A stretch of DNA of 64,000 nucleotides from Chamaelirium japonicum. Its lineage: Eukaryota > Streptophyta > Magnoliopsida > Liliales > Melanthiaceae. The stretch's first letter is position 1, and each line of letters opens with the position of its first letter. This document shows positions 43,049-63,592 of the stretch, piece by piece. Both the position numbers and the translations under genes were made by a program. The stretch is taken from the NCBI GenBank assembly GCA_947650365.1, contig OX393550.1, positions 96,142,951 to 96,206,950 on the forward strand, written 5' to 3'. The notes under the pieces were generated by a model, which had not been told where the DNA came from, searched no databases, and was given only the letters and a program-made list of their open reading frames with translations.

Positions 43049-43230
43049 GAGAGATGCTATTCAACCCGAAGGTTTTCCCTATTCCGCCAGTCCAATTGAT
43101 TTGGCAGCATACAACTGGTGGTTGAAACGCACTAGCGATATTTAAATCATTTACACCACCAGTTGCATGCTGCCACATCAATCGGGCTGAGCGGAGTCGG
43201 AAAAACCTTCGGGCTGAATAGCATTTCTCC
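43049..43230. mobile_element. Foldback MITE, copy 2
   Basis: gagatgctattcaacccgaa pairs with ttcgggctgaatagcatttc, and the inner arms (gcagcatacaactggtg / caccagttgcatgctgc) also pair, giving a near-complete hairpin of ~180 bp. This is the best preserved copy. Confidence 0.85.
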
Positions 43231-53404: not shown

Positions 53405-54640
53405 TGCTCCTTTTGATCTTGTTCACTCTGATATTTAGGGACCCTCTCCTCTCCCTTCTATGACTGGGTATTTATATTATGTCTCGTTTGTGGATGATTA
53501 CAGTCGCTACATGTGGGTCTACCTTCTTCGCCGTCGATCGGATATCATCCAAGTCTATAAGGACTTCACCTCCATAATTCACACGCAGTTTAGTCAGTGC
53601 ATCAAGATCTTTCGATCTGATTGTGCCCTTGAGTATCTATCTACCGCTATGCGTAGCCTTATTCAGTCCCATGGGACTATTTTCCAGCACTCGTGTCCTC
53701 ACATCCATGAGCAGAATGGTATTGCTGAGCAAAAACATCGTCATAATCTTGCGACTACTCGTGCTCTCCTTCTTTCTGATTCTGTTCTTTGGCGCTTCTG
53801 GGCTGAGGCTCTTCTCACCTCAGTCCAGCTCATTAACATCACTCCTTCGTCGGTTCTTCCGGATGACTTGTCTCCTCATGAGTGTCTCCTCTCTATCACT
53901 CCTGACTACAGCCCTCTTCACACTTTTGGGTGCACCTGTTTTGTTCTTCTTCCTCTCCATGAGCGCACGAAGCTGTCTGCTCAGGCAGCTAAGTGCATCC
54001 TTCTTGGGATCAGCACTGAGCACAAGGGATACCGCTGTTATGACCCTGTTGCTCATCGCTTGCGTATCTCTCGACACGTCTCCTTTGTCGAGGATACGCC
54101 CTACTACTCTCCTGAAGCTCAGGATCTCACCTTCCTTGAGGTTTCTTCTCCTCTATCATCGACACCTATGCCTCCCTCGTCAGCCTCTCTGGTCCCTCCG
54201 ACTCCGTCGGCTCCTTCCCCGCCACCAGCTCCCTCGGCACCACAGGCTCTTTTGCTAGTTGTTTCCCCAGCGTCTCCAGGGGACTCCTCCGAGGCTTCCT
54301 CTTTTATGCCTGTGCCTCTCTCTCCTCCCCGGATTGTCTCTCCATTTCCTCAGGTTTACTCTCGCCGGCCTACCCCTGTGTCTCTGTGTCCTTCCTTCTC
54401 AGTGGATGTCGGCTCCCCTGTTGTTGAGGTTAATCCTGGTTTTCCGCCTCCTGTGTCGGCTCCGTCATTGTCAGTCGTGGATCCGTACCCGCCTCGCTAC
54501 CCTCAGCGCCAGCATCACTCGCCTGACCGCTTTAGCCATAACACTGGGCCTCCTGATCGTTTTGGTTTTGCCTCTGTCTGCAGTTACTCACCTCAGTTTA
54601 CTGCCTTTCTTACTACTGTGCACGCAGATCAAGAGCCCCG
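53405..54640 (+). pseudogene. Copia integrase and proline/serine-rich linker
   Basis: The integrase core begins around SFVDDYSRYMWVYLL (first Asp), followed by FRSDCALEYLS (second Asp; the usual Asn-Gly-Gly-Glu is altered) and HEQNGIAEQKHRHN (Glu). The C-terminal GCTCFV, KLSAQAAKCILLG and GYRCYDP motifs are present. From about 54150 to 54640 the frame is the long Ser/Pro-rich linker to reverse transcriptase. The zinc-binding N-terminus is upstream in broken frames. Confidence 0.87.
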
Positions 54641-55502
54641 GTCCTACTATGAGGTAGTTCAGTTTCCTCAGTGGCATCAGGCTATGGATGAGGAGTTTCA
54701 GGCCTTTCAGCAGACTCAGACCTGGGATGTTGTCCCTCTGCCCTCTGGCGTTGAGCCTATCAACTGCAAGTGGATCTATAAGGTCAAGCACCGACCTGAT
54801 GGCTCCATTGAGCATCACAAGGCTCGGGTGGTGGCTCGTGGCTTTACTCAAGAGTATGGCGTTGACTACGAGGAGACTTTTGCTTCGGTGGCTCAGATGA
54901 CCACCGTTTGAGCTCTTCTGGAGGTTGCAGCTATTCATCGATGGGCCCTTCCTCAGATGGACATGAAAAATGTCTTTCTTCACGGTGACCTGTCTGAAAC
55001 GTTTTACATGGATCCTCCTCTTGGTCTCTGTGTTCCTTCTCAGCACGCGTGTCGTCTTCGTCGGACCATTTATGGGCTCAAGCAAGCTCCTCGCGCCTGG
55101 TTTGAGCGGTTCCGTCGTGCTGTCAGGGAACTTGGTTACTCAAAGAGCAGTCAGGACCACTCTCTCTTTGTCAAGTCGTCCCCGCAGGGCCGGGCGATCC
55201 TACTGCTATACGTGGACGACATGATCATCACTGGAGATAACTCTGCTGCGATTGCTAGTCTTCAGCAATACTTGAGGAACCAGTTTCAGATAAAGGATTT
55301 GGGTACGCTTCGCTACTTTCTTGGTCTTGAGGTTGCATACAGTGCAGACGACATTCTGCTCTCTCAGCAGAAGTACCCTTCAGACATCCTTAGTCGTGCC
55401 GCCCTCACAGATAACCGCACAGTAGACACCCCTCTTGAGCTTCACTTGAAGCTACGTCCTACAGATGGAGTTCCTTTTTCAGATCCCACTCGATACAGGT
55501 AG
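54641..55502 (+). pseudogene. Copia reverse transcriptase
   Basis: Motifs in order: WHQAMDEEFQAFQQTQTWD, INCKWIYKVKHRPDG, ARVVARGFTQEYGVDY, then TGA (54909-54911), MDMKNVFLHGDL, YGLKQAPRAWFERF, and the catalytic LLLYVDDMIITGD. The frame ends at TAG 55500-55502. Both stops fit C-to-T (CGA and CAG). Apart from the stops, the catalytic residues are intact. Confidence 0.9.
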
Positions 55503-56152
55503 ATTGTGGGACAGCTCGTCTACCTCTGCATCACTCGGCCTGACATTGCACACGCTGTCAGCATTGTCAGTCAGTTTGTTGCAGCTCCATACTCAGTTCA
55601 CTATGGTGCTTTTCTTCGGATCCTCCGGTACTTCAGAGGTATAGTTACTCGCTCTTTGTTTCTGTCATCGTCCTCCTCTCTCAGCCTTCGAGCCTATTCA
55701 GATGCAGACTGGGCTGGAGATCCGACTACACGCCGCTCCACCACTGGTTACTGCTTGTTTCTTGGCGACTCTTTGATATCCTGGCGCAGCAAGAAGCAGA
55801 AAGTGGTGTCTCTCTCTAGCACTGAGGCTGAGTATAGAGCCATGGCCTCCACGACTAAGGAGATAGTTCACCTTCGACATCTCCTCAGTGATCTCAGTGT
55901 TACTTTCTCTGAGCCTACTCCACTGTGATAGCCGGAGTGCTATTCAGATTGCTAGCAATCCGGTTTTTCATGAAAGGACAAAGCACATCAAGATTGACTG
56001 TCACGTCGTCCGACAGGAGTATGAGGCCATGACAATCTCACTACCCTTCGTTCCCTCAGTAGAGCAGATCACAGACATCTTCACGAAGTCACATCCTACG
56101 CCACGTTTTCGGTCTTTGATTGCCAAACTCTTGGTGCATGATCCACCCTGAG
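55503..56152 (+). pseudogene. Copia RNase H
   Basis: YSDADWAGDPTTRRSTTGYC, then SWRSKKQKVVSLSSTEAEYRAMA, are the copia RNase H motifs. A small deletion near 55925 shifts the frame. The remaining end ([28 protein letters not shown]) is in the next frame up to 56151. Confidence 0.88.
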
Positions 56153-56164
56153 TTTGAGGGGAGG

Positions 56165-58708: not shown

Positions 58709-59090
58709 GGGCTGGGTTCCTATGACATGTCATAGGGAGTACCCTATGACATATGGTGAATTAGTAATGCTAGAATGTTTAGAATGTACTGAATTTTTTT
58801 GAGGGTGATCACCTTACCTTAGATAGAATGTCCACAAAAAATCAAAGAATTCAAAAACTTGTTGGGGCATCAAATGCTAGAAGCTTTATCGGCCATCCAT
58901 TTTAACCGTTAAATTGAAAATCATATTTGATGCCTCTAGAAGTTTTAGAATGAGCCGATTTTTTGCGGGGGTCCTATCTAAGATAGGGTAATCATCCTCA
59001 TAAAAATTCAGAACATTCTAAATATTCTAGGGTTACTAACTCACCATATGTCATAGGGTATTCCCTATGACATGTCATAGGAACTCATTT

Positions 59091-59175: not shown

Positions 59176-59179
<4 letters not shown>

Positions 59180-59520
59180 AGATACCCTCACACCTCAAAA
59201 CCCGGGTTGTAAGGGGAGGTCCACAGGGGGTATATTAAGCGGGTGATGGGTGCCTCCCTCACCGATGTGGGACTATCCGTTAACACTCCCCCTCACGCAG
59301 AGCACGCGTGGCAAGGCACGATCGGTGGGGAGCACCCGGAGCGAGAGCAAGAGCAGGAGATGGTGAACCCAGCTCTGATACCATGTTAGGAGATGACGGC
59401 TAGGGTTTGGAGAGGAATGTAATTCTCTCTATTGAGGGACTCAAGCCCAATATATATGTACATGTATGACCATACAACCCGACCCGACTGTACATGTAAC
59501 CCGACCCATCTATATACATT

Positions 59521-59524
<4 letters not shown>
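59176..59524 (-). mobile_element. Hybrid retroelement 1: copia-type 5' LTR on a TRIM body
   Basis: On the minus strand: 5' LTR of type C (59384-59524, 141 bp), PBS TGGTATCAGAGC (59372-59383), an 86-bp TRIM-like interior ending in a purine tract (complement of ctccccctcacg), then a 3' LTR of type T (59176-59285, 110 bp). The two LTRs are unrelated in sequence and length. The pentamer ATATA flanks both ends, but the site is an (AT)n array, so this is weak support. The T LTR is nearly identical to 63250-63360 and the C LTR to 60820-60960. Confidence 0.85.

Positions 59525-59588
<64 letters not shown>
59525..59588. repeat. (AT)n microsatellite, right part
   Basis: Continuation of the array interrupted by hybrid element 1. 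Confidence 0.95.
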
Positions 59589-59589
<1 letters not shown>

Positions 59590-59590
<1 letters not shown>

Positions 59591-59872
59591 TGAGAAACCT
59601 CCATTCATGAGAAATCATCGCAAAACGTACAGACATTTCAGAATTTGCTGAAACTTGGAGGATGTGCTATCTATAACAAGTAGGAGCAAGAAAAGTTAGA
59701 AGATTTGTCGACCCGTTAATTTGAATCTCATATTTGTTATGCCTAGAGGATTTATAATTGATGATTTTTGGTGAGAATGATTAACTTGCCATAGATAGCA
59801 CACCCACCAAGTTTCAGTAAATTCTGAAACCTCTATATAGGTTTTGCGATGGTTTTGCATCTTAACAGGTTA
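59590..59872. mobile_element. Foldback MITE related to 43538-43900
   Basis: tcatcgcaaaacg and tttcagaatttgctgaaact at the left pair with agtttcagtaaattctgaaa and ggttttgcgatgg at the right; gtgctatctat / atagatagcac also pair. The interior gagaatgattaacttgcc links it to the other two MITEs. Confidence 0.75.
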
Positions 59873-60701
59873 TATATATATTCCGTACGGATCTACTGCT
59901 AGTTGTTAATGTAACCGATTAGTGTTCTTTTCCTTACAAAAAAGGGATTTAAAATGTTGTGCGTATGTGTGCAATGTCCACTTCATTCACATATTTCAGT
60001 CGCATAGTACAGATATTCGTAGGTGGTGTTCAAGGCTTACTGAAACAACCTTCTAATTTTTTAACCAATCAGATTGTGGAACATCAGAAGACATCTTATT
60101 CCAATCACAACACGAAAATATAGAAGAATAACTTACAAATCTTCCTATGGGTGCGAGCACATTGTAGAATTACATAATTTTTGTCAAATTCTATATCAGA
60201 GACCGCCATGTTGCAGCTTCCAAATTAGATTTAGTTAATTCACTCATAAGCAGAGGCGGAGTCAGCTTAGGCCCAGTGGGGGCATCTGCCCCCACTCAGA
60301 TTTTGAAAAAAAAAAAAAATTGGTTCTCCTCTCAGAAACACGTGTCACCCAACCAAAAAATATCTCCACTAAAAACCTAAAAGCAAGATCGATGGCTGAG
60401 ATCGATTGCCAAAAAAAAAAATCTTCTCTTGAGGTGCGACTTGCAGGTTCGCAGCGCGGACGGCCCGGCGGCGGGCAACCTCTTACCTCACCGTCGTCAC
60501 CGACGCCTCGCAGGGCCGCACCGGTGGCGGCCCGCACGGGCTCAGGCGGATCGCGGGATCGGGACCACGCCACACGCTCGCGGGCCTCGCGGCTCGCCGA
60601 TCACCACCTGCGGCTGCGGAGTGCGGGCTACCGTCGGTCGACTCGGTCCGTCACCGCCGACGTCGAACAGGCTGAACAGGCTGAACAGCCGAACAACAAT
60701 G

Positions 60702-60702
<1 letters not shown>

Positions 60703-60773
<71 letters not shown>
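60703..60773. repeat. (CT)n microsatellite inside the hAT-type element
   Basis: About 35 CT units. Confidence 0.97.
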
Positions 60774-60775
<2 letters not shown>

Positions 60776-60819
60776 AATCCATGATCTGAGATTCAGATCT
60801 GTTTTTTTTTTTTTATATG

Positions 60820-60960
60820 TGTTAGGAGATGACGGTTAGGGTTTGGAGAGGAATGAAATTCTCTCTATTGAGGGACTCAAGCCCAATATATATGTACATG
60901 TATGACCATACAACCCGACCCGACTGTACATGTAACCCGACCCATCTATATACATCAACA
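60820..60960 (-). repeat. Type C LTR (3') of hybrid element 2
   Basis: It differs from 59384-59524 at 3 of 141 positions by eye. Confidence 0.93.
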
Positions 60961-61056
60961 CACCCCTCAAACTCACGGTGGATCATGAACCGAGAGTTTG
61001 CCGATAAAGTGCCAGAAGCGAACAATCGTAAGGGGCTTCGTCAGAAAATCAGCAGT

Positions 61057-62445
61057 CTACTCCGATGATGAAATGAATGGCAGGGAGATGGTGTGGTCGA
61101 GAAACTCCTGGCGAACATAATGATAATCAACCTCAATATGTTTTGTTCGCTCATGAAAGACCGGGTTGCTAGCAATTTGAATAGCACTCCGGTTGTCACA
61201 GAAGAGAGGCGTGGGCCCGGATATCACAACCCCCAAGTCGAGCAGAAGGCGGCGAAGCCAGACAATCTCTGCGGTGGTGGAAGCCATAGCCCTATATTCG
61301 GTTTCGGTGCTGGAGCGAGCAACAGACTCCTGTTTCTTGCTGCGCCACGAAATAAGCGAATCACCCAGAAACACGCAGTATCCTGTAGTAGAGCGGCGAG
61401 TGGCTGCATCTCCTGCCCAATCTGCATCGAAGTAGGCACGCAGCACCAACGGGGAGGTGGAGGGAAACAGTAGTGAACGGGTGATGGTGCCCCGGAGGTA
61501 GCGGATAATCCGAAGGACAGCTGTATAGTGAACTGAACGTGGAGCCTGAACAAACTGAGTGACAATGCCAACAGCATGGGCAATGTCTGGCCGGGTCATA
61601 GTGAGATAGACGAGCATCCCAACCAGCCTCTGGTAGCGGGAGACATCCTGGAGCGGCTCACCATCTGTAGCTAGAAGCTTCAAATTGAGCTCCATGGGTG
61701 TATCAGCAGTGCGAGAGTCAGTAAGAGCAACAGCAGCAAAGATGTCGGAGATGTACTTTTGCTGGGAGACCAACAGACCACGAGCGGACCGGGCAATCTC
61801 AAGGCCCAAAAAGTAGCGAAGAGAGCCCAGATCTTTCATCTCAAACTGACTCTGGAGGTGCCGCTGAAGGGATGCTATGGTGACACTGTCATCCCCAGTG
61901 ATGATCATATCATCCACATAGAGAAGAAGAACTGCAATACCCTGACTGAAGGAGCGAGTGAACAGGGCATAGTCGGAGTGACGCTCAACAAACCCGGTAG
62001 CCAGGACTGCACTGTGGAATCGCTCAAACCAGGCACGAGGGGCCTGCTTGAGCCCATAGATGGCTCGGCGCAAACGACACACGTGCCCTGGAGGAACTGA
62101 AACGCCCAGAGGAGGAGCCATGTAGACTTCCTCGGAGAGATCACCGTGGAGGAACGCATTGGTGACATCCATCTGATGGAGAGGCCACCCTCGAGCAGCT
62201 GCCACAGCTAAGAGGGTGCGCACAGTAGTCATCCGAGCAACTGGAGCAAACGTCTCCTCGTAATCAATCCCATACTCCTGGGAGAAGCCACGAGCAACGA
62301 GGCGAGTCTTGTGCCGCTCAATGGATCCGTCAGGTCGAGTCTTGACCTTGAATATCCACTTGCAGCTAATAGGCACCATACCTGAGGGACAAGGCACCAA
62401 ATCCCATGTCTGGGTCCGCTGAAAAGCTTCAAGCTCAACTGACAT
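61057..62445 (-). pseudogene. Copia reverse transcriptase-RNase H, open 462-codon segment
   Basis: The frame contains ELEAFQRTQTWDLVPCPSG, SCKWIFKVKTRPDG, ARGFSQEYGIDYEETF, MDVTNAFLHGDL, YGLKQAPRAWFERF, the catalytic LLLYVDDMIITGDD, LGSLRYFLGLEIA, then RNase H with YFDADWAGDAATRRSTTGYC, SWRSKKQESVARSSTETEY and [19 protein letters not shown]. It ends at a TAG (61057-61059) that fits CAG-to-TAG, about 25 codons before the natural end. No other stop interrupts it. Because gag, protease and integrase are gone, the element could not move alone. Confidence 0.9.
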
Positions 62446-62786
62446 GGCCTGCCGCCACTCTGGAAGTAAAGCTACCCCACGGTACGATTGGGGCTCCCGA
62501 TGGGTGTGTATAGCAGTAAGAAAAGCCTGAAAAGATGGTGAATAGGAGGCACTGGCAGATTAGCCAGAGGAGTCAGGAGAGTCAGAGGGAAAGGCAGAGT
62601 AACCAAATCTGTCAGGAGAGTAGTCATATCTGTCAGGAGGGTGATATTCGCGCGCTGGGTAGCGCCAAACAGGAGTAGGATCCACGACCAGGGAGGAGGG
62701 GGCAGCAGCATCAGGTGAAGGAGTACCAGTATGAACTGACTCTGAAGGAGGAGCTGCAGACCGACGAACATAGACACGAGTAACAG

Positions 62787-63225
62787 GTGGTGGTGGAGGT
62801 GTCGAGGAAGACGGAGGAGGTGGTGGCGGTGGTGATGGTGGTGGTGGAGGTGGCGGGGAGGCTGTCGGGGCAGAGGAAGGGGGCGGGGGGTGCCAGGTGG
62901 TTCCGGGTGGGACTGTCGGGGCAGAGGAAGGGCGGCGGAGGGGGCTGTCGGGGCAGAGGGAGGGGGCGAGGGGGCTGTCGGGGCAGAGGGAGGGGGCGGG
63001 GGGGTCTGTCGGGGTAGAGGAAGAGGGCGAAGGGGGCTGGCGGGGCAGAGGAAGGGGGTGGAGGGGGCTGTCGGGGCAGAGGGAGGTGCCGGGGGGGGGC
63101 TGTCAGGGCAGAGGAAGGGGGCGGGCGGTGCCGGGTGGGGCTGTCGGGGCAGAGGGAGAGGCCGGAGGTGCTGCCGGGGTGGAGGAGAGGCCGGAGTTTG
63201 GTGCTGTCGTCGCCGTCGTCGTGCG
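62787..63225. repeat. ~33-bp minisatellite in the copia linker
   Basis: ggggctgtcggggcagagg recurs about ten times between 62866 and 63165, preceded by ggtggt repeats. On the minus strand it would encode a Pro/Ala/Ser-rich linker, consistent with the low-complexity region between integrase and reverse transcriptase of copia elements. Confidence 0.88.
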
Positions 63226-63249
63226 AGAAACTCTAGAGCTCTGATACCA

Positions 63250-63360
63250 TGTTAGATACCCTTACACCTCAAAACCCGGGTTGTAAGGGGAGGTCCACAG
63301 GGGGGTATATTAAGCGGGTGATAGGTGCCTCCCTCACCGATGTGGGACTATCCGTTAACA
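63250..63360 (-). repeat. Type T LTR (5') of hybrid element 2
   Basis: It differs from 59176-59285 at 3 positions including one indel. It contains gatgtgggactatcc, the same core type as the TRIM at 47088-47423. Confidence 0.93.
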
Positions 63361-63592
63361 ATATGGTTCACAGGTCTCAATTCAGATCTGTTTTTTTTTT
63401 ATATGGTTCACGGGTCTCAATTCTCAGAGTTGACTCAGTCTCAACTCTCATGTTTATCTTCTTTTTTTTTTTTTTGACATTTTGTGTCATTGTGTGGTCT
63501 ATGGTCACTGGTTAGTGGCCCGAGGGGAGGTCGTGGGGACGGGGGGTAGCCGGGTAGGTGGGGATGGATTGGGGGTTTGGGGCCCATGGAGT

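Follow-up and report, generated by a model that had tools for sequence, protein, structure and literature searches.

Mixed TRIM and copia retrotransposons in Chamaelirium japonicum, probably formed by transfer between unrelated templates at a shared primer-binding site

Terminal-repeat retrotransposons in miniature (TRIMs) are very short elements with short long terminal repeats (LTRs), a primer-binding site (PBS), a polypurine tract and a non-coding interior. Complex LTR retrotransposons arising from abnormal template switching within one particle were described by Sabot and Schulman in 2007; their partners belong to the same family or are close relatives, and the switch takes place between R regions (PMC1950507). 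TRIMs, whose definition in a 2016 survey agrees with the one above (PMC4717578), also form single-family tandem arrays (PMC4717578; PMC7215508 for Cassandra; PMC4668562 for pear). Tandem LTR retrotransposons of highly similar repeats are known from rice and other plants, and a 2025 study of them leaves the choice between illegitimate recombination and retrotransposition open (PMC11899658). Here we analyze a 64,000-nucleotide stretch of the C. japonicum genome (the window), in which two neighboring elements each combine an LTR of a TRIM with an LTR of an unrelated copia element, one around a TRIM interior and the other around a copia interior.

We write C for the copia-type LTR and c for the copia interior, T for the TRIM-type LTR and t for the TRIM interior. 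Both elements read on the minus strand, element 1 as C1-PBS-t-T1 (59524 to 59176) and element 2 as T2-PBS-c-C2 (63360 to 60820), and their parts are as follows.

59176..59285, minus strand: T1, 3' LTR of element 1, TRIM-type, 110 bp, identical to both LTRs of the homotypic TRIM L003
59286..59383, minus strand: t, TRIM interior, 98 bp, starting with the PBS TGGTATCAGAGC and ending with the polypurine tract GAGGGGGAG
59384..59524, minus strand: C1, foreign 5' LTR of element 1, copia-type, 141 bp
60815..60819, unstranded: ATATG target duplication, C side of element 2
60820..60960, minus strand: C2, native 3' LTR of element 2, 141 bp
60961..63249, minus strand: c, copia interior, 2.29 kb, with the PBS at its 63249 end and the polypurine tract adjoining C2
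61057..62445, minus strand: open reading frame (ORF) of 462 amino acids, reverse transcriptase (RVT_2, E=3e-71)
63250..63360, minus strand: T2, foreign 5' LTR of element 2, TRIM-type, 111 bp
63361..63365, unstranded: ATATG target duplication, T side of element 2

The two kinds of LTR are, by direct comparison, unrelated: their longest common string is the terminal TGTTAA (6 bp), and a string of that length is found in 442 of 500 shuffles. The reverse transcriptase in c is of the kind that marks Ty1/copia elements (RVT_2, E=3e-71), and c is shorter here than in locus L013/L040, where it spans about 4.6 kb from T-c to c-C. The small partner has the make-up of a TRIM, with a T of 110 bp and a non-coding t of about 98 to 128 bp between PBS and polypurine tract; the window's t is 97% identical to the interior of L003 over 90 bp. 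The shared PBS TGGTATCAGAGC presumably matches plant initiator tRNA-Met. Cassandra elements have the same PBS (PMC7215508). Element 2 is flanked on both sides by an exact 5-bp ATATG duplication, and its flanks, once rejoined, form a tandem repeat whose two ~45-bp copies differ by one substitution and in their T-run (63361-63420); insertion as one unit therefore fits element 2. Element 1 is embedded in an (AT)n tract and has AT to either side, so the TATAT repeat around it is uninformative as a duplication.

The window lies inside assembly GCA_947650365.1 (1.52 Gb), which was searched whole. A search with the 349-bp C-t-T unit yielded 4,611 candidates, and because the 40 places scored each match at least 332 of 349 bases, the hybrid structure is not explicable by chance. 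Of these 40, 38 are complete or short of only 2-3 bases, two are short of 17, and identity is 83-94%, the window's own copy apart. Thirty loci returned by this search, the window included, were annotated with the four symbols. They comprise flank-C-t-T-c and c-C-t-T-flank arrangements, truncated and inverted cases, and a few stand-alone C-t-T units (L009, which is the window; L017; and L031 with its duplicate L035). Throughout the annotated loci each interior is followed by its own LTR and preceded by either one.

The same rule holds for joints counted over the whole genome with at most 3 mismatches, a census in which the unit is the joint rather than the independent event, chains contribute more than one joint, and diverged joints are missed at both ends. 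A foreign LTR stands before c in 188 of 3,084 joints (188 T-PBS-c versus 2,896 C-PBS-c) and before t in 199 of 1,348 (199 C-PBS-t(a) versus 1,149 T-PBS-t(a)), where t(a) is one of two 5' subtypes of t seen and the window's t is of the other, not counted apart. At the opposite end of the interiors the same genome-wide count gave no c-T joint against 2,179 native c-C joints and no t-C joint against 1,524 native t-T joints. This asymmetry between 5' and 3' ends has Fisher p values of 3e-45 for copia and 1e-69 for the TRIM, the joints not all being independent. Among the first 30 of 1,749 LTR-PBS-c sites (exact matches, one contig), C precedes c in 28 and T in 2. Homotypic copia and TRIM families thus dominate, and hybrids are a sizeable minority. 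The two interiors have common sequence at each end: CTAACATGGTATCAGAGCT where LTR meets PBS and TGAGGGGGAGTGTTAA where polypurine tract meets LTR (the tract of element 2 itself is GAGGGGTG). If short homology guided recombination, LTR swaps would be expected at both ends, yet they are seen at the 5' end only. A foreign LTR 5' of the PBS together with a native LTR 3' of the polypurine tract is what intermolecular plus-strand strong-stop transfer would leave.

Beyond the window, single hops (T-c-C and C-t-T) and chains (T-c-C-t-T and C-t-T-c-C) are both found, several of them bounded by target duplications, together with homotypic elements of both families and a TRIM array.

L017: C-t-T, exact duplication AGGTT
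L026: C-t-T-c-C, exact duplication TGTAC, shortened c
L034: C-t-T-c-C, exact duplication GTTAC, shortened c
L065/L111: C-t-T-c-C, exact duplication CCGGG
L013/L040: T-c-C-t-T, exact duplication CTTCT
L023/L074: T-c-C-t-T, exact duplication ATAAC
L082/L099: T-dc-t-T, exact duplication GATGC
L002, L003 and L007: homotypic T-t-T, exact 5-bp duplications GTCTC, ACATC and CAGCC, respectively
L072/L112/L113: homotypic C-c-C, duplication ATTAT, LTRs matching at 138/141, C-PBS-c start and polypurine tract-C end 4.9 kb apart, ends read
L004: T-t-T-t-T array, duplication GTTTA, outer T copies matching at 109/110

Duplications match at 4 of 5 bases around L010/L039, L095/L104 and L031, and likewise around the TRIM L008. 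The middle T of L004 differs from the outer copies at 4 and 5 sites. When 20 of the 188 T-c sites were sampled (consecutive exact matches on the contigs labelled C1-C4), 11 had T at the 5' edge, one of them truncated, seven were C-t-T-c, one was t-T-c without a recognized C and one was t-T-T-c. Six of the 11 T-terminal copias (L076, L078, L079, L082, L090 and L095) are followed on the same strand by a C-t or t-T stretch, L084/L100 is T-c-C without t, and four others are without a resolved end. In 1-kb segments taken at the expected 3' end of nine T-terminal copias the end was recognized in four. A C LTR was found at the expected 3' end of three among seven C-t-T-c loci so treated: that of L065/L111 is matched and comes with the duplication, that of L030/L109 is unmatched, and that of L036/L110 is cut. 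The outer C LTRs of chains match at 129/130, 151/151 and 136/140, which is far closer than the background (median 86.6%, 95th percentile 95.7% for pairs among 67 C copies). Partial LTRs were excluded from these medians, and L001 was omitted as a duplicate.

These data bear on the preliminary description of the window, which had read the pair as C-PBS-t-T and T-PBS-copia-C with an exact ATATG, a structure that we confirm on the minus strand. Its proposed mechanism, a swap of LTR plus PBS between a TRIM and a copia element, gains support from the position of the foreign LTRs, which precede the PBS in 188 and 199 joints and follow the polypurine tract in none (0 and 0). The homotypic parents that it called for exist, T-t-T in L002, L003 and L007 and C-c-C in L072/L112/L113, all with duplications, and the genome search that it suggested returned hundreds of hybrid joints and several loci with exact 5-bp duplications. 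What is not supported is a view of the pair as a rare reciprocal event, as the two kinds of hybrid joint number 188 and 199. It had also named one outcome as fatal, that C and T LTRs regularly occur together as one family; they do regularly occur together, but as two recombining families.

We also considered, and reject, the idea that C-t-T is merely the 349-bp LTR of one copia family, with element 1 as a solo LTR. Flank-C-t-T-c and c-C-t-T-flank loci, taken separately, do fit this idea. Chains with both ends resolved, however, end either C...C (L026, L034 and L065/L111) or T...T (L013/L040, L010/L039 and L023/L074), and C-t-T-c-C-t-T was not seen among them.

Separately, head-to-head or inverted joints occur at LTR ends or at the PBS in L006, L024, L032 and L039. 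In L024 a C-t-T directly abuts an inverted c-C, and in L039 T-PBS is joined to an inverted t-PBS-C. Inverted TRIM pairs are known in maize (PMC4717578).

Both window elements are, in our judgment, probably products of intermolecular second-strand transfer between TRIM and copia templates that share a PBS. On this account, particles would hold RNAs of an abundant copia (C, c) and an abundant TRIM (T, t) with the same 12-base PBS, and copia proteins would mobilize the TRIM. Plus-strand strong-stop DNA, an LTR together with the PBS copied from the tRNA, would pair with the complement of the PBS where the minus strand of the other family has its 3' end, and synthesis would continue across that interior into the 3' LTR belonging to it. 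Element 2 (T-c-C) and element 1 (C-t-T) would each result from one such hop. If the PBS at the newly made 3' end hopped again, T-c-C-t-T or C-t-T-c-C would follow, with outer LTRs drawn from one template; a path from T to c-C to t-T would start and end on the same TRIM minus strand and so leave like outer LTRs. Such transfers would have been repeated, sometimes twice running. Repeated plus-strand transfer at the PBS predicts just the order observed, in which an interior is followed by its own LTR and preceded by either.

Further evidence comes from aberrant joints. In five joints (L015, L023, L026, L029 and L034) the sequence departs exactly after the 12-base PBS and continues as neither the start of c nor the start of t. 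Landing sites were located for four of them, and in three, L015 (inverted c), L026 and L034, the preceding 6 bases match the PBS end CAGAGC at 5 of 6. Matches of this quality occupy 0.55% of 28,960 positions (four copia loci, both strands), so that three of four has p about 7e-7. Strong-stop DNA would be expected to have just such a defined 3' end at the PBS.

Several points weigh against this interpretation. What is seen is genomic joints and no particle cDNA, and the second transfer of HIV-1 is described as generally intramolecular (PMC5651808). Among the aberrant joints, the landing site of L023 matches CAGAGC at 2 of 6 bases, that of L029 was not located, and two PBS bases are changed in L034. 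The five were picked from a listing that required an intact PBS (85 LTR-PBS joints in L002-L072) and would miss joints breaking inside it; L028 breaks after 8 PBS bases and L021 has mostly lost its PBS. No clean duplication was found around L019/L073 or L084/L100. The outer C copies of L030/L109 match at only 114/150, and this locus may not be one element. Outer T copies of chains match at 110/111, 108/110 and 109/110, only near the 95th percentile of unrelated pairs (median 92.8%, 95th percentile 99.1% among 50 T copies); helped by variants shared within pairs, they are suggestive of pairing and no more. Those of L023/L074 (102/110), L019/L073 (104/110) and L095/L104 (100/110) are no closer than typical pairs.

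An alternative hypothesis, which is compatible with plus-strand transfer and which we regard as possible if somewhat unlikely, is that a few chains had a single or rare origin and from then on amplified like any other element, using T or C as LTR. Simple hybrids would then be by-products made by way of the chains' internal PBS or polypurine tract. In its favor, 6 of the 11 T-terminal copias sampled are followed by a C-t or t-T stretch, and L010, L011 and L013 are 95% alike to element 2 in c. Against it, hybrid and homotypic LTRs are interleaved on the C and T trees, and a founding hop is still required. The C tree (27 C-t and 27 C-c LTRs) has 15 label changes, at least 7 of them forced by well-supported branches, compared with a mean of 18.3 in shuffles, 33 of 500 being as low as 15. 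In the T tree (33 T-c and 9 T-t) there are 9 changes, 6 of them forced, and the shuffled mean is 8.3; its bootstrap is not settled. Duplicates (L001, L009 and L035), partial LTRs and joints with an unnamed interior were excluded from both trees. Because joint type changes repeatedly along them, the hybrids appear to have multiple origins. Onward copying of whole chains with like outer LTRs may have taken place as well, so that joints outnumber events.

We give a rather smaller chance to the main rival mechanism, minus-strand copy choice at the PBS, by which nascent minus-strand DNA would switch to the 5' end (U5-R) of the other family and then make an ordinary first jump to the 3' R. Plus-strand priming at either polypurine tract would yield the same hybrids and chains. 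This route uses the same PBS homology and predicts the same products and the same 5'-only asymmetry as plus-strand transfer, which counts against the latter, and intermolecular first transfer is described as common (PMC5651808, PMC3187697). It poorly explains why some joints stop exactly where the PBS ends on its 3' side and resume within c or t, in one case inverted, at targets resembling the PBS end; nor does the similar shared stretch at the polypurine tract give any switches.

Integrated elements could also have recombined or undergone conversion at the DNA level through their 19-bp PBS homology, unequal crossing-over included, and an origin of this kind has been proposed for tandem TRIMs and tandem LTR elements (PMC11899658; PMC7215508). 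Here it is very improbable: C and T are not homologous, hybrids are flanked by exact duplications, the flanks of element 2 rejoin into one tandem repeat, and at the other end the GAGGGGGAGTGTTAA stretch, though shared, has produced 0 swaps. Least probable of all is that the window pair is a single T-c-C-t-T composite split by a later insertion or duplication of C, for although order and strand are those of the chain L013/L040, element 2 by itself has ATATG at each end and continuous flanks that rejoin, grounds on which we reject the split, and element 1 lies within its (AT)n tract, AT to either side.

Whether the two window hybrids share one origin is a separate matter. C1 and C2 differ at 3 of 141 sites, and T1 and T2 by 2 substitutions and one 1-base indel. 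The preliminary description had taken this similar divergence to suit a single episode, an argument that is undone by homotypic copies. Among the copies compared, with L053 and L070 ignored because an indel misaligned them in the ungapped table, the closest to C1, which was not itself searched genome-wide, is the 3' LTR of L072 (1 difference). The nearest to C2 among 40 scored of 1,901 candidates is the same LTR (2 differences), followed by C1 (3). The two LTRs of L072 themselves differ at 3 sites (138/141), so three differences are the norm for contemporary copies of this sublineage. In the T comparison, from which the window's own copies L001 and L009 were dropped, T1 matches both LTRs of L003 at every base and yet is 3 changes from T2. 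C1, C2 and both L072 LTRs have A at site 101, where the other copies compared differ, and both hybrids would therefore have drawn on one young C sublineage. Of the earlier claim, then, a same era for both hybrids fits the LTR data, and a single particle as their source is possible, though a single episode is neither needed nor shown.

The window contains other features. A second copia-like stretch (54603-56161) lies 4.7 kb from element 2 and is 68% identical to c over 1.57 kb, with an ORF at 53460-54911 on the plus strand. Two segments, 2540-2603 and 2729-2797, are 75-81% similar to the 3' end of T (bases 47-110) and are probably old TRIM LTR fragments. An inverted repeat with 163-bp arms, 84% complementary (58713-59087), adjoins element 1 and resembles a miniature inverted-repeat transposable element or a foldback element. 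Positions 43093-43184 match Rfam mir-16 above the cut-off (43.7 versus 36.5 bits); mir-16 is an animal microRNA family and the host is a plant, so this is probably a chance hairpin.

Of the described systems, the complexes of Sabot and Schulman are similar in their chains with an internal shared LTR, 5-bp duplications and matched outer LTRs, all of which are found in L013/L040, L026 and L034. The window elements do not belong with them, having only two LTRs each, and these unlike. In C. japonicum the LTRs are unrelated, the exchange is at the PBS, single-hop heterotypic elements occur and the direction of exchange has been counted genome-wide. C and T share no homology that would allow a jump between R regions, their 6 common bp being no more than in shuffles. 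Tandemly arrayed TRIMs have a counterpart in L004, with at least three LTRs of one family and a GTTTA duplication, and in the inverted joints (PMC4717578; PMC7215508; PMC4668562), a comparison that does not apply to the window elements; the arrays in those reports are of a single family, whereas here a TRIM is chained with an unrelated copia. Tandem LTR retrotransposons likewise show alternating LTRs and interiors, some with duplications (PMC11899658), and the unlike LTR labels of the chains reported here favor retrotransposition over illegitimate recombination. For HIV-1, intermolecular second transfer predicts a breakpoint at the U5/gag (PBS) joint, and the study in question reports no such breakpoint among 27 proviruses (PMC5651808); here there are hundreds of such joints between unrelated templates. 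The autonomous/non-autonomous pair Cereba and Quinta is marked by identical PBS and LTR termini (PMC11302176), whereas the present families, which are physically linked, have hardly more in common than LTR ends, PBS and polypurine tract.

In the open-licence literature searched, supplements excluded, no TRIM joined at its PBS to an unrelated coding element was found, which is not proof of absence. As far as searched, then, the new part is the version with unlike LTRs and its directional census, template-switching complexes and tandem TRIMs being already known. Because the partners' LTRs are unrelated, the chains cannot arise by LTR-LTR homology, and the exchange point is fixed at the PBS. On balance we lean toward a wider reading, in which copia particles would carry TRIM RNAs, second transfer would often be intermolecular, against the retroviral rule, and plus strands would hop across at least two templates. 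The LTR-PBS joint would then be a fossil record of particle sharing that names the autonomous partner of a TRIM without LTR homology. The 2016 survey gives related longer elements for only 11 of 289 TRIM subfamilies (PMC4717578); compared with that record, PBS-joined hybrids offer a route to the partner that needs no sequence similarity, the mark to look for being a TRIM LTR followed, across the PBS, by a coding interior.

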